A program made the position numbers and the translations under genes. 32,669 nt of DNA from Trueperaceae bacterium. Its GTDB lineage: Bacteria > Deinococcota > Deinococci > Deinococcales > Trueperaceae. Under the pieces are notes generated by a model. It saw nothing but the letters and a program-made list of their open reading frames with translations, had not been told where the DNA came from and did not search any database. Shown here piece after piece: positions 16,688 through 22,642 of this stretch; position 1 is the stretch's first letter, and each line of letters starts with the position of its first letter. The stretch covers positions 1 through 32,669 of the forward strand of contig JASBUK010000108.1 in NCBI GenBank assembly GCA_030147925.1, written 5' to 3'.

Positions 16688-16858
16688 GGCCGGAAACTCG
16701 TAGTTTTTGCCTTTACTCCGAGTGCCGCCCTCATCCTCGCAAGGGGTGCTGCATGCGTTAGATCTGGTACTCGGACTTTGACCGTTGCGGGACAGCGCTG
16801 GAATTTCACCAGACTTCCCCAGATAAAACGCCAAAAATTCGCCAGCAACCTGGCGTGT
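16688..16858 (-). ncRNA. Cobalamin riboswitch
   Basis: The minus-strand leader contains the conserved cobalamin core in order. GGGGAAGTCTGGTGAAATTC (16821-16802) is followed by CGCTGTCCCGCAACGGT (16798-16782) and AGTCCGAGTACCAG (16776-16763). Further on come GCGAGGATGAGGGCGGCACTCGG and a small AAACT-ACG-AGTTT stem that fits the P13 element. The B12-box order and spacing match the known class I riboswitch. The 5' boundary is set by the promoter at 16863-16891, and the 3' boundary is approximate. No intrinsic terminator follows, so control of translation is more likely. Confidence 0.93.
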
Positions 16859-18296: not shown

Positions 18297-19598
18297 TTAA
18301 GTCATTTCCTCGCTAGGGCTTAGCTGCGTATCGAGGCTGGGCAAGCTCACGACAAAGCGACTTCCTCGCCCCAGGCTGGAAGCCACCGTCACGGTGCCGC
18401 CGTGCTGTCTAACAATTTCCCGAACCACACTAAGCCCCACGCCCACGCCGCCCTTAGTCTTGCGCGTGTAAAAGCGTTCAAAGACGTGCGGCAGGTCTTC
18501 GGCGGTAATCCCCGGCCCTTTATCACTAACCTCAAGCAGAAGTTGCTCGCCTTGGCGTTGTAAATGCAGGGTCACTCCGGCAGTAGACCCACCAGCTTGA
18601 ACCGCATTGCGCACCAGATTTCTGGCAACCTGCGCCATCCTTTGCGGATTACCCGCCATCTCAGCTGTTCCGCTTAGAACAAGATTAACGCCAGGGTATT
18701 CCCGAGCGATGCGCTTTACCACCTCGGCAAGATCAAAAATTTCCAGCTCGAGCGGTCGCTCGAGCTCCCCGCGTGACAGGGTCAGCAAATCCTGTGAAGT
18801 ATAAAGTAGTTCTCTGGCGGCTTCTTTGGCCGCTTGTAGGCGGCTGTCATAATTTTGTTGGGCAGCCAGCGAATCGAGATGCCCGGCTACTAAAGTAAGC
18901 GGCCCCGCCAGCTCATGAGCAATTTCGGCCAGTGCCGAGCGCTCGGCTTCCTGCCGCTTGCGAATGTCAGCGAGGGCGTTACTCAGCGCCTGTGCTACCT
19001 CAGCTACTTCATCTTCAGGTCCTTGATAGGCTATGGCCTGCGGCTTTGCCGGGTCGAGCCGCTTCGCCTGTGCCGCCAGTGAACCCAGAGGCTTAAGGGC
19101 ACGTTGCAAAAAGAGTAAGCCTAGCAGCAAGGTCAAAAACGCCATGGCAAGACCTGTGAGCAGCAAAATGCGCTGCAAGCTTCGCCGCGCAAGCAATGTT
19201 TTGCTGACGTCTAAGCCTATGCGGATCGTGCCGGGTACGGCCCCGCTCGCCAAAGTCCAGGGAACGGCGGCAATAAACAGCGTCTTGCCTTCAAAACTAT
19301 CCAGGGTGGGTTGTTCATACAACGGCAGAACCGCTTGGGCATTCGGCGGCAAAACAGGCTGTCCCGCCGAAGAAACTACTTGCACCACAAAGTCCGTACT
19401 GCTTTCAGAAATAAAGCGTGCCCCTATCTGTTGATTCTGGAACAAAGTCTGCACCCGGCTAAGGTCAAGCAGCAATAAATCTTCCAGTTGACGCCATTGC
19501 TGACGCATAAAAAGAAGATCGGCCAAGACGCCGAAAAGACCCAAGCCCAGCAGCACTATAATTGCCGTTAATAAACTTAGCCGCAGGCGCAGTGTCAT
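18297..19598 (-). CDS. Histidine kinase, PmrB/QseC-like
   Basis: Membrane sensor kinase that should phosphorylate the regulator encoded just upstream. The 433 residues comprise a first membrane helix (6-30), an extracytoplasmic loop of about 110 residues, a second helix (142-165) and a HAMP-like linker. The dimerisation helix carries His228 (EIAHELAGPLTLV, with AG in place of the usual RT). The ATPase domain has N331 (NLVRNAV), DKGPGI (359-364), FERFYT and GGVGVGLSVV. The start overlaps the regulator stop as ATGA. The signal is unknown; acidic secreted proteins in the same unit suggest a cation or envelope cue. The sensor loop has no obvious ExxE iron motif like PmrB. Confidence 0.88.
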   Translation of the reverse strand: MTLRLRLSLLTAIIVLLGLGLFGVLADLLFMRQQWRQLEDLLLLDLSRVQTLFQNQQIGARFISESSTDFVVQVVSSAGQPVLPPNAQAVLPLYEQPTLDSFEGKTLFIAAVPWTLASGAVPGTIRIGLDVSKTLLARRSLQRILLLTGLAMAFLTLLLGLLFLQRALKPLGSLAAQAKRLDPAKPQAIAYQGPEDEVAEVAQALSNALADIRKRQEAERSALAEIAHELAGPLTLVAGHLDSLAAQQNYDSRLQAAKEAARELLYTSQDLLTLSRGELERPLELEIFDLAEVVKRIAREYPGVNLVLSGTAEMAGNPQRMAQVARNLVRNAVQAGGSTAGVTLHLQRQGEQLLLEVSDKGPGITAEDLPHVFERFYTRKTKGGVGVGLSVVREIVRQHGGTVTVASSLGRGSRFVVSLPSLDTQLSPSEEMT

Positions 19599-20266
19599 CG
19601 CAACACGTAGCCCATACCGCGCACGGTGCCAATGACACCCACCAATTTGGCATCGGTGAGTTTCTTGCGCAAATTGGAGATAAAGACCTCAATGGTGTTT
19701 GAGCTGGGCAAGGCCTCGCCGCTATAAAGCCTGTTTTCCAAATCCTCTTTAGAGAAGATGCGGCCCGGATTGCCGAGCAAAAGCTCGAGCAGTTTAAACT
19801 CCCGGGCTGTAAGCGACAGCGCTTTGCCATTTACCGTGCAGCGGCTAGCTTTAAGGTCAAGCTCGAGCCCTCCATGGCGGAGAATCTCCTGGGGGACTGT
19901 TTCACGCAAACGCACATGCACGCGGGCTAAAAACTCCTGAATACTAAAAGGCTTAGTCAGATAATCGCTGGCCCCGGCATAAAGCCCGGTAACGCGGCTG
20001 GCCACATCACCACGTGCGGTCAACATCATGATGCTGCTATCGCTGCGACCACGCAAGCGCTCGGCTACTTCTAAGCCATCCATATCGGGTAGATTAAGAT
20101 CGAGGACAATGAGCTGAAACTTAGCACTATCAGCCTCTAGCAGAGCCTCGGTGCCGCTGTGAACCACCATAACTCGATAACCCTCATGGCTCAGTTCCTG
20201 CTCAAGCAATTTAGCCAGACGCTGATCATCTTCCACCACCAGAATATGCGCACCTGCTAGGCTCAT
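19595..20266 (-). CDS. OmpR-family response regulator, PmrA/QseB-like
   Basis: DNA-binding regulator of 223 residues. The receiver domain has the acidic pair D13-D14, phospho-acceptor Asp56 (VLDLNLPDMDG), Thr83 and Lys105. The winged-helix effector (about 125-223) has LTAREFKLLELLL, then NTIEVFISNLRKKL and VRGMGYVL, closest in style to PmrA/QseB. Those regulators bind tandem CTTAA-type half-sites, and a phased CTTAAG array lies upstream of this unit. GAGGT 9 nt before the ATG is the binding site. The gene follows the acidic protein gene by 42 nt and overlaps the kinase by 4 nt. Confidence 0.92.
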   Translation of the reverse strand: MSLAGAHILVVEDDQRLAKLLEQELSHEGYRVMVVHSGTEALLEADSAKFQLIVLDLNLPDMDGLEVAERLRGRSDSSIMMLTARGDVASRVTGLYAGASDYLTKPFSIQEFLARVHVRLRETVPQEILRHGGLELDLKASRCTVNGKALSLTAREFKLLELLLGNPGRIFSKEDLENRLYSGEALPSSNTIEVFISNLRKKLTDAKLVGVIGTVRGMGYVLR

Positions 20267-20308: not shown

Positions 20309-20851
20309 TCAGTCATCCTCGCTATCATCTTCCCCACCACCGCTCGAGCCCTCATCATCGCCAGAATCGCCACCGTCTTCGTCGTCATCAGCACCACTAT
20401 CGTCTTCGTTACCACCGCCGTCCCCATCGCCTTTGTCGTCACTGTTATCGCCGCTGTCCTCACCCGGCCCATGATTGTCGTCTTCAGCTTCGTCTTGGGA
20501 GTCATCTTCACCAGCAAAAGACAGGTCTAAGCTGATATTGGCTTTTAAGAGCAGGTCCTGAAAATCCACTAATTCACCAGACGGCAAAGAAATTTGCAGG
20601 CGACCAGCGGCGGTGATTTCGCCGCTAAAGGACTCAATTTCACCACTGGCCTGAATAAAAAGCATCACAAAGCGCCTGACCTCTTCGCTTATGAGCAGCT
20701 TAAGCTGCCCTTGCTCCACCACGCCATAGCCTAAAAAGACATCGCTGCGGGAATTGGTCAGAAGCAGTTCGGTTCCTTCATTGATAGTTTGTGCCGCCGC
20801 TAGATTAGCAGACCCCAAGATTAAAATGAGCGCAAAAAGCCAGGTCTTCAT
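20309..20851 (-). CDS. Secreted protein with acidic tail (copy 2)
   Basis: Unrecognised 180-residue exported protein. A signal peptide (MKTWLFALILILGSANLAAA) is followed by a beta-rich domain of about 90 residues. The tail from about residue 115 to the end is half Asp/Glu (33 of 66), with Gly and Ser and just one Lys. The folded part aligns by eye with the neighbouring 20982-21527 product: a G-[TS]-x-L-x-x-T strand, a G-x-G-x-V turn, hydrophobic strands, and a closing SLDLS or SVDIK strand. They are therefore tandem paralogues. The tail could bind Ca2+ or other cations in the envelope, but this is inferred from composition. No sorting or lipoprotein signal is present. Confidence 0.75.
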   Translation of the reverse strand: MKTWLFALILILGSANLAAAQTINEGTELLLTNSRSDVFLGYGVVEQGQLKLLISEEVRRFVMLFIQASGEIESFSGEITAAGRLQISLPSGELVDFQDLLLKANISLDLSFAGEDDSQDEAEDDNHGPGEDSGDNSDDKGDGDGGGNEDDSGADDDEDGGDSGDDEGSSGGGEDDSEDD

Positions 20852-20981: not shown

Positions 20982-21527
20982 TTAGCTGTTATCTTCCGAA
21001 TCGTCGTCATCTTCGTTATCATCGTCATTCTGGTCATCGCTGCTATCATTATGGTTCTGCTCGTCAGCATCATCACTATCATCATTCATGTCCTGGTCAT
21101 GATCGCCTTCGTCGTTATCCTCAGCGTCATCACGATCACTGTCGTTATCTTCTGTATCATTTTCGTCTTGATAGTCATTGTCAGACACGTCGTCATCCGT
21201 CTTGATATCTACGCTAAGTCCCGAACCACTCAGCGCCTCTTCTAAAGTCGTTATGTCGTTCCCTACGATTAATCTTACGCCATCATCACTGCCGATCATC
21301 AGCTCATAATTCGTGATATTGCCTGCACTATCGGTCACCGCCAACTGGGCAAAGCCTTCGAAACCGCTTAAGAGCTCGAGCTCAAACTCCGAGCTGTCTA
21401 CATAACCTGTGCCCACTACGTTACCGTTTTCATCAGTAACGGTAAGCTGACTACCAGTCGGAACTTCCAGGGCGAACGCCATACTCAGAGCAAACAATGT
21501 CACAGCAAACCAGACAACCTTTTTCAT
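20982..21527 (-). CDS. Secreted protein with acidic tail (copy 1)
   Basis: First gene of the two-component unit, 181 residues. A signal peptide (MKKVVWFAVTLFALSMAFA) precedes a beta-rich domain (TGSQLTVTDENGNVVGTGYV and onward to about residue 108). The tail from about 111 to 181 has 40 Asp/Glu of 71 residues, interspersed with Asn, Ser and His but few Gly, unlike its paralogue. Stretches such as DNDSDRDDAEDNDEGD recall calcium-loop composition, though no canonical EF-hand or RTX repeat is present. GGAGGT (21533-21538) gives a firm start. The CTTAAG array lies just upstream. Function unknown; an envelope cation-binding or signal-modulating role is an inference. Confidence 0.75.
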   Translation of the reverse strand: MKKVVWFAVTLFALSMAFALEVPTGSQLTVTDENGNVVGTGYVDSSEFELELLSGFEGFAQLAVTDSAGNITNYELMIGSDDGVRLIVGNDITTLEEALSGSGLSVDIKTDDDVSDNDYQDENDTEDNDSDRDDAEDNDEGDHDQDMNDDSDDADEQNHNDSSDDQNDDDNEDDDDSEDNS

Positions 21528-21545
21528 CTTCTACCTCCAGCTAGC

Positions 21546-21611
21546 AGTATGCCCGGAGCAACTTAAGCGAAGCTTAAGACAGCTTAAGTAGGCTTAAGCA
21601 GACAACTTAAT
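21546..21611. promoter_or_regulatory. CTTAAG half-site array, likely regulator operator
   Basis: Four exact CTTAAG hexamers start at 21562, 21573, 21583 and 21593, and a CTTAAT follows at 21606. The spacing of 11, 10 and 10 nt is one helical turn, as in PmrA boxes (YTTAAK-N5-YTTAAK) and QseB sites (CTTAA-N6-CTTAA). On the minus strand a -10-like CATACT (21551-21546) lies 10 nt beyond the last hexamer, so the array covers the -35 region of the acidic-protein/two-component unit. Because CTTAAG is itself palindromic, the array could also control the divergent gene at 21636. Confidence 0.7.
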
Positions 21612-21635
21612 AGCTCTCAGCAGTAGGATAGGAGC

Positions 21636-21869
21636 ATGATCTACCCTGCATTTGAGGCTGGAGAGCTAACCGGCAACATTCTGCTCAAAGACCGTAACCT
21701 TATGGAGTTATGGAAGTGGGCGGCAGACGAAGGACAGATACAAGCGATAAAAGTCCGGGGAAAAAACTACGCCGTGGTCAAAGACCCGGACCTGGCCGCC
21801 AAGATCAGCGCTGCCTCTTTAGCTATAAAGCAATACCGTTACGATGACGAGAAGGAGCAATTGCTATGA
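21636..21869 (+). CDS. Uncharacterised 77-residue protein
   Basis: Small soluble protein without a recognised family. It looks like one compact mixed domain (GNILLKDRNLMELWKWAADE, then GQIQAIKVRGKNYAVVKDP) followed by a helical C-terminus. The first part resembles a short helix-turn-helix or excisionase-like layout (helix, Trp, then a basic KVRGKNY turn), but this is weak. AGGA lies 7 nt before the ATG. The stop overlaps the hydrolase start as ATGA, so the two are co-translated. The CTTAAG array begins 38 nt upstream, so regulation by the adjacent response regulator is possible. Confidence 0.65.
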   Translation: MIYPAFEAGELTGNILLKDRNLMELWKWAADEGQIQAIKVRGKNYAVVKDPDLAAKISAASLAIKQYRYDDEKEQLL

Positions 21870-22642
21870 AGTTCCCTTTGGGCCACACAGAGTTTTATGC
21901 TCAGCTCGAGCTAACTAATCCCGTTATCCTGCTACACGCCTTTCCACTACACTCGGGCATGTGGTCGGCACAATTGCCGGTAATCCGTAAAGCCGGTTTC
22001 ACCCCCATTGCTATTGACGCCCCTGGTTTTGGCCGCTCCGAATTAAGCGGCCAGGTGAGCGATATGGACTTGCTGGCGGATAACGCCTTTACGCTGTGGC
22101 AAAGGCTCGAGCTGCCCCCGGCTGTGGTAATGGGTCTGTCTATGGGCGGCTATGCCGCGCTACGTTTAAGCGAGCGCCACCCGGAAATGCTGCGTGCCCT
22201 GGTACTGGCCGATACCCGCACCGAAGCAGATACACCCGAAGCACTAAGTAACCGTTATCAAACTGCCAAAAGCGTGCTGACACAGGGCAGTTCACTGCTC
22301 TTAGAGACGCTTGTCCCCAAATTGCTGGCAAACTCCAATGCCGAACTGAAAAAACAAGTTGCCGACATGATTAGTGAGGCTTCGCCCGAGGCGATTGCCG
22401 CTGCCTTACGCGGCATGGCCATACGTCCTGATAGCAGCCGACAGTTGCCCGCCATCAACGTGCCTACTTTGGTTGTGGTGGGCGCAGAAGATCAGCTCAC
22501 CCCGCCCAGTAACGCCAAAGCGCTTGTCCAGGCCATAAAACAGGCCAAACTCGGGCTTATTCCAAATGCTGGCCATCTAAGCAATATGGAAAATCCCCAG
22601 GCCTTTAATAAAGAACTCAGTAATTTTTTAGATTCCTTGTAA
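21866..22642 (+). CDS. Alpha/beta-fold hydrolase
   Basis: Serine hydrolase of 258 residues with a complete catalytic triad. The nucleophile is Ser92 in the elbow GLSMGG (90-95), the acid is Asp209 (GAEDQLTPP) and the base is His237 (NAGHLSN). The oxyanion segment LLHAFPLHSGMW (22-33) is also typical. A helical lid lies between residues about 115 and 190. The family includes esterases, lactonases and MenH-like enzymes; the substrate cannot be read from sequence. It overlaps the upstream small gene by 4 nt and is followed 9 nt later by another small gene, suggesting a three-gene operon. Confidence 0.88.
   Translation: MKFPLGHTEFYAQLELTNPVILLHAFPLHSGMWSAQLPVIRKAGFTPIAIDAPGFGRSELSGQVSDMDLLADNAFTLWQRLELPPAVVMGLSMGGYAALRLSERHPEMLRALVLADTRTEADTPEALSNRYQTAKSVLTQGSSLLLETLVPKLLANSNAELKKQVADMISEASPEAIAAALRGMAIRPDSSRQLPAINVPTLVVVGAEDQLTPPSNAKALVQAIKQAKLGLIPNAGHLSNMENPQAFNKELSNFLDSL

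Follow-up and report, generated by a model that had tools for sequence, protein, structure and literature searches.

A conserved direct-repeat array as the predicted operator-promoter of a secreted acidic-protein/two-component operon in Trueperaceae

Streptococcal CiaR promoters carry the direct repeat TTTAAG-N5-TTTAAG, with ten nucleotides to the -10 element and an essential G (PMC3091779). In S. mutans, the regulator–kinase pair is encoded together with the calcium-binding protein CiaX in an autoregulated ciaXRH operon, and calcium reportedly represses this operon through CiaX (PMC8317062). The box recognized by PmrA (BasR) is CTTAAG-N5-NTTAAT (PMC3973317).

The locus considered here lies in a Trueperaceae contig stretch of 32,669 nt, which was analysed as a whole and is referred to as the window. 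A 108-nt gap (21528–21635) separates two divergently transcribed sets of genes, and the leftward operon has the order A1-A2-regulator-kinase. The preliminary description had placed four CTTAAG hexamers, spaced 11, 10 and 10 nt apart, and a CTTAAT in this gap, on one face of the helix and with the last site 10 nt from CATACT; the coordinates are exact (CTTAAG starts at 21562, 21573, 21583 and 21593) and the arrangement is borne out by the sequence. Read toward A1, it runs ATTAAG-N7-CTTAAG-N4-CTTAAG-N4-CTTAAG-N5-CTTAAG-N10-CATACT, followed by GCTAGCTGGAGGTAGAAGATG. The features of the gap are as follows.

21606–21611, minus strand: fifth copy lying outside the 10–11 bp register, N7 from unit 1; it reads ATTAAG on this strand and CTTAAT on the opposite one
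21593–21598, minus strand: putative operator unit 1, CTTAAG, N4 from unit 2
21583–21588, minus strand: putative operator unit 2, CTTAAG, N4 from unit 3
21573–21578, minus strand: putative operator unit 3, CTTAAG, N5 from unit 4, at about -34 to -39; the N5 spacing is conserved
21562–21567, minus strand: putative operator unit 4, CTTAAG, 10 nt from the -10-like box, at about -23 to -28; position kept in 30 loci
21551–21546, minus strand: CATACT, the -10-like box of the acidic-protein operon, separated by 10 nt from unit 4
21534–21538, minus strand: Shine-Dalgarno sequence GGAGG, abutted by the predicted transcription start (about 21539)

The array exceeds what chance would give. The pattern CTTAA-N4..6-CTTAA has 6 matches in the window, compared with 0.28 ± 0.49 in shuffled sequences. 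The lone hexamer is itself enriched (22 copies versus 10.9 ± 3.1), and because of this over-representation a single CTTAAG carries little meaning. Arrays of at least three NTTMAG units at 10–11 bp occur in the 2.98-Mb draft genome at this position alone, and the reversed control pattern gave 0 matches in the same genome. A genome scan for CTTAAG-N4/5-CTTAAG, which had been proposed as a check, returned one further place, C14:20838, which reads as coding sequence. An Rfam search found nothing at the array. Elsewhere in the window, an AdoCbl-II (cobalamin) riboswitch lies at 16757–16836 on the minus strand (57.4 bits, gathering score 36.5).

To examine conservation, 61 genomes and then the whole family were searched for relatives of the regulator, and 40 surrounding stretches were taken. 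The counts cover 41 loci (410 kb, 52 secreted-protein domains). The general unit in these loci is NKTMAG (K = G/T, M = A/C) with an 11-bp period. N5 pairs of KTMAG within 260 nt upstream of a secreted-protein gene and on the same strand were found in 30 of 41 loci (39 sites), against 0.27 expected from the pair density elsewhere, with the qualification that the loci counted are also those from which the motif was generalized and that they are related. Control periods of 8–9 and 12–13 gave 0 and 1 pairs, respectively. The 260-nt limit misses arrays lying farther upstream in L038 and in L033, where the array precedes a fasciclin lipoprotein gene. A pair combined with a YANNNT box occurs in 24 loci at N10 and in none at N9 or N11. 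When loci were selected on the two units alone, the sixth place of the -10 box was T in 30/30 and the second was A in 26/30, while the spacer holds little information in the alignment. Family-wide, the TTMAG form of the layout gave 21 hits versus 1 for the reversed control.

The relatives also define the unit. Besides GTTAAG-N5-CTTAAG (G009) and ATTAAG-N5-ATTAAG (G012), four units are present as CTTCAG-N5-CTTAAG-N5-CTTCAG-N5-CTTAAG in G001 and likewise number four in G017, G014 and G035; arrays of three to four units occur in the related loci L039, L040, L041 and L087, and CTTCAG pairs in the g8 genomes. The layout in L032 is ATTAAG-N5-ATTAAG-N10-CAGACT. In a sister clade with the gene order regulator-kinase-secreted protein, CGTAAG or CGTCAG pairs stand immediately upstream of the secreted-protein gene, so that the operator precedes this gene in both orders, A1-A2-RR-HK and RR-HK-A1. 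The palindrome CTTAAG, initially taken as the unit, is ruled out as the recognition unit by GTTAAG, CTTCAG and CGTCAG in relatives; the comparison instead shows an asymmetric direct repeat, NKTMAG, and the CTTAAG palindrome is incidental. Conservation of this non-palindromic form at fixed spacing in 30 loci also leaves almost no credence for a chance or purely structural repeat, such as a hairpin or palindrome cluster without regulatory function, despite the moderate over-representation of CTTAAG in the window.

Beyond the core family the conservation weakens: of 11 additional held-out loci, mostly from more distant genera and families, 4 have an upstream pair (roughly 0.2 expected, as estimated from the density in those 11 loci) and 1 has the full N10/-10 layout. 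The operons L086, L101 and L102 show no array, and L044 and L045 have one clear unit each. Loss of the array from relatives that keep the operon, the outcome named beforehand as speaking against an operator, is nevertheless the exception, the array being mostly kept. One point counts against the best explanation: of the three spacings between units in the window, two measure 10 rather than 11.

The layout is kept at fixed spacing, before the same genes, in dozens of relatives, which makes a self-switching landing pad very likely. Taken together with the geometry, the array is most probably the operator-promoter of the A1-A2-regulator-kinase operon, bound by dimers of the phosphorylated co-encoded regulator that help polymerase at CATACT. 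The original prediction of an operator for the acidic-protein/two-component unit thus gains support from the 30 of 41 related loci. The genes of this operon are as follows.

20982–21527, minus strand: A1, secreted protein, first gene of the operon, with a beta domain of about 80 aa and an acidic tail (48% D+E after the domain)
20309–20851, minus strand: A2, paralogue of A1, with an acidic tail
19595–20266, minus strand: OmpR-family response regulator, predicted ligand of the array (Pfam Response_reg and Trans_reg_C; recognition helix TIEVFISNLRKKL)
18297–19598, minus strand: sensor histidine kinase (Pfam HATPase_c; HisKA below the cut-off)

The regulator has the domains expected of the OmpR/PhoB family, a receiver (PF00072, 98.4 bits) and a Trans_reg_C winged helix (PF00486, 77.2 bits), both above cut-off, and its predicted half-sites lie head-to-tail at about 11 bp and adjoin the -10 box. 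It had been described as being of PmrA/QseB type. Membership of the OmpR family holds, whereas scores against the NCBIfam equivalog models fall far below the cut-offs for PmrA (NF007928, 166.5 bits, cut-off 330) and QseB (NF007663, 141.5 bits, cut-off 345), as does the kinase against PmrB (NF008025, 86.6 bits, cut-off 314). The box with its N10 spacing matches CiaR promoters instead, although in overall sequence the regulator is closer to BasR and QseB (38% identity to each) than to CiaR (31–33%). An orthologous CiaR would be expected to carry the helix VVEVYVSKVRKKL, in place of which the window regulator has TIEVFISNLRKKL. Because the model scores are far under the cut-offs and identity to CiaR is 31–33%, the regulator is neither CiaR nor PmrA by membership; judged from its sequence, it is a member of the OmpR/PhoB family belonging to no named subfamily, and by analogy it is predicted to act on DNA in a CiaR/PmrA-like manner.

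The likeness to CiaR promoters comprises an NTTAAG direct repeat with an 11-bp period and terminal G, and a distance of exactly 10 nt to the -10 box. CTTAAG-N5-CTTAAG-N10-CATACT corresponds to the CiaR operator NTTAAG-N5-WTTAAG plus N10, with C in the place of W. As in ciaXRH, the operator lies before the regulator's own operon, the regulator is of the OmpR family, and an extra component is encoded with the pair. The systems differ in phylum and in recognition helix, in the number of units (two in CiaR promoters, two to four in Trueperaceae), in the fourth base, which is A or C here, and in the extra components, which are here beta-domain proteins with acidic tails. With PmrA, the locus shares a near-identical half-site, the N5 spacing and a similar SNT-x-EV helix; in contrast, the second Salmonella half-site ends in T, whereas G ends both units here (in the relatives the G was fixed by the search pattern), and the window operon has no eptA-type gene. 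E. coli QseB has a comparable helix, SNAVEV.

Whether the adjacent regulator or a different one reads the array was considered from the half-sites. The operators fall into TT and GT types, which lie on two sides of a single branch of the regulator tree (a quick tree, support 83–91), requiring one change, compared with a shuffled mean of 12.3 changes for the TT group. The TT-clade recognition helix is SNT[IV]EV[FY], with one exception having Leu (L096), and the GT-clade helix is mostly [SG][PH]?NA or SNA followed by [VIL]E[VA][LVI]. The second operator base therefore goes from T to G alongside helix changes of Thr to Ala and Phe/Tyr to Leu/Val. We take the Thr of this helix to correspond to Thr194 of PhoB. 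In PhoB, Thr194 touches half-site thymines (as cited in PMC3973317), so a Thr in this helix would fit T at the second operator base. Half-site and helix switched only once on the tree, so the switch counts as one independent observation, suggestive and short of statistical proof.

The half-site class thus tracks the clade of the adjacent regulator, pointing to the cognate one. In two genomes, G015 and G035, both regulator clades occur, and each is paired with its respective operator type. This pairing favours an adjacent over a shared regulator and shows that the class follows the clade rather than the species. A different OmpR/PhoB-family regulator acting in trans could also be envisaged, given that OmpR/PhoB operators are generally 11-bp direct repeats, that the genome has seven further OmpR/PhoB regulators above E 1e-15, and that the family has a second promoter class, TGTAAG-N5-YGTMAG-N10-TANNCT, before pilin genes among others. 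The helices of the seven others found in the genome differ, however, and none is of the SNTIEVF type. Together with the clade pairing, this makes a regulator in trans unlikely and autoregulation by the co-encoded OmpR-family regulator, as first proposed, the best prediction.

The following mechanism is proposed. Phosphorylated dimers of the co-encoded regulator would bind head-to-tail on the direct repeats, which read CTTAAG on the operon strand. The promoter-proximal dimer would cover about -39 to -23, replacing a -35 element, and a second dimer would sit on the two upstream units; the bound proximal dimer would then help RNA polymerase to open the -10 element, CATACT, at its constant distance of 10 nt. 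Placing the last -10 base at -7 puts the predicted transcription start near 21539, at the Shine-Dalgarno sequence, and L037, L103 and L039 have an equally tight leader. The co-encoded regulator would thereby autoregulate the operon positively, and the acidic secreted proteins may feed back on the kinase, perhaps as cation-binding third components like S. mutans CiaX.

Activation with positive autoregulation is the best prediction because the geometry is that of CiaR-activated promoters. The opposite effect, in which the co-encoded regulator binds the array and represses its own operon, may be argued from the overlap of the units with the -35 region, where bound protein could block polymerase, and from the reported calcium repression of ciaXRH through CiaX (PMC8317062). 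The calcium effect of CiaX is a signal effect, though, and does not make CiaR a repressor, and units in the -35 place at a fixed N10 to the -10 are the arrangement of CiaR-activated promoters. We therefore regard repression as improbable and retain activation.

On the other side of the gap lie two genes on the plus strand.

21636–21869, plus strand: divergent small protein, 77 aa, with a possible leaderless -10 TAGGAT at 21624–21629
21866–22642, plus strand: alpha/beta hydrolase (Pfam Abhydrolase_1), downstream of the small gene

It had been suggested that these genes share the regulon, and, CTTAAG being self-complementary, the array might mainly serve them or both directions equally. The divergent arrangement is kept in G009 (L037), and in both genomes, as judged by eye, 12 nt separate the last TTAA unit from a -10-like box (TAGGAT in the window, TATAGT in G009), which itself lies 6 nt before the ATG of the small gene. 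The pair occurs in just two of the loci examined, however; in the rest, the operator stands before the secreted-protein gene and the divergent pair is absent. The non-palindromic GTTAAG, CTTCAG and CGTCAG of relatives point toward the secreted-protein gene, and the N10/-10 geometry is found on the acidic-gene side only. It is thus very unlikely that the array serves mainly the divergent genes or both directions equally, and the suggestion of a shared regulon is not supported as stated. Two divergent cases are too few for a conclusion, and the small gene and hydrolase may be co-regulated. A scan of the own genome for a TTMAG pair with N10 and YANNNT gave only doubtful further sites: C64 and C70 lie within coding sequence, C78 precedes a gcvH-like gene, and a plus-strand match lies inside the array.

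An N-terminal domain of about 80 aa is common to A1, A2 and their relatives, and A1 and A2 are acidic with a predicted signal helix. The A1 domain is predicted to be all-beta (pLDDT 93–97), with no significant match of the fold in the PDB (best E 0.084) and no Pfam family above cut-off; a search with A1 among genome contigs found no relative. Nearly all family members have tails with a net negative charge, which is strongest in the TT clade (up to 66% D+E). The family is distributed throughout Trueperaceae and is also present in a few genomes from other families within the order. The proposed parallel between A1/A2 and CiaX would be a functional one.

We tentatively put forward that Trueperaceae have two ancient paralogous secreted-protein/two-component sets, kept apart by T or G at the second base of NKTMAG and matched by a helix change from Thr and Phe/Tyr to Ala and Leu/Val, that the secreted proteins are a CiaX-like extracellular third component, and that the same layout arose in two phyla; the proposal may well fail. 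Interest centres on the operator switch between the paralogues and on the orphan secreted family. The locus offers a concrete predicted operator and regulator for an undescribed secreted acidic-protein family, in a family of bacteria that has received little study. It also offers a natural pair of paralogues whose change in DNA specificity may trace to two helix positions and one operator base. The correspondence with CiaR promoters suggests that this regulator superfamily repeatedly uses 11-bp repeats placed N10 from the -10 for activation.

Several further observations were made in the window and its relatives. The window (1–32669) contains 34 copies of the palindromic octamer GCTCGAGC, where base composition predicts 0.57. 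This HIP1-like hyper-abundant octamer is also enriched in relatives (16 copies in 12 kb of L037, 13 in L040 and 11 in L032). The GTMAG form of the family-wide scan gave 43 hits versus 0 for reversed controls, in a set that mixes in another promoter class, making another OmpR-type regulator of the same geometry likely; TGTAAG-N5-YGTMAG-N10-TANNCT stands before type IV pilin-like and other genes across the family (L224, L225, L226, L227 and further hits). A second two-component system, in G012 and G021 (L115 and L121), carries CTTAAG/GTTAAG repeats with N10-CAGACT in the gap that separates its regulator gene from its kinase gene. TTMAG arrays with the N10/-10 layout are also found in L109, L123, L118 and L106, before genes for DUF5666, Chlam_PMP-repeat and fasciclin lipoproteins, all apparently at the cell surface and candidate further targets; the DUF5666 lipoprotein arrays, in two genomes of genus g2, have four units.
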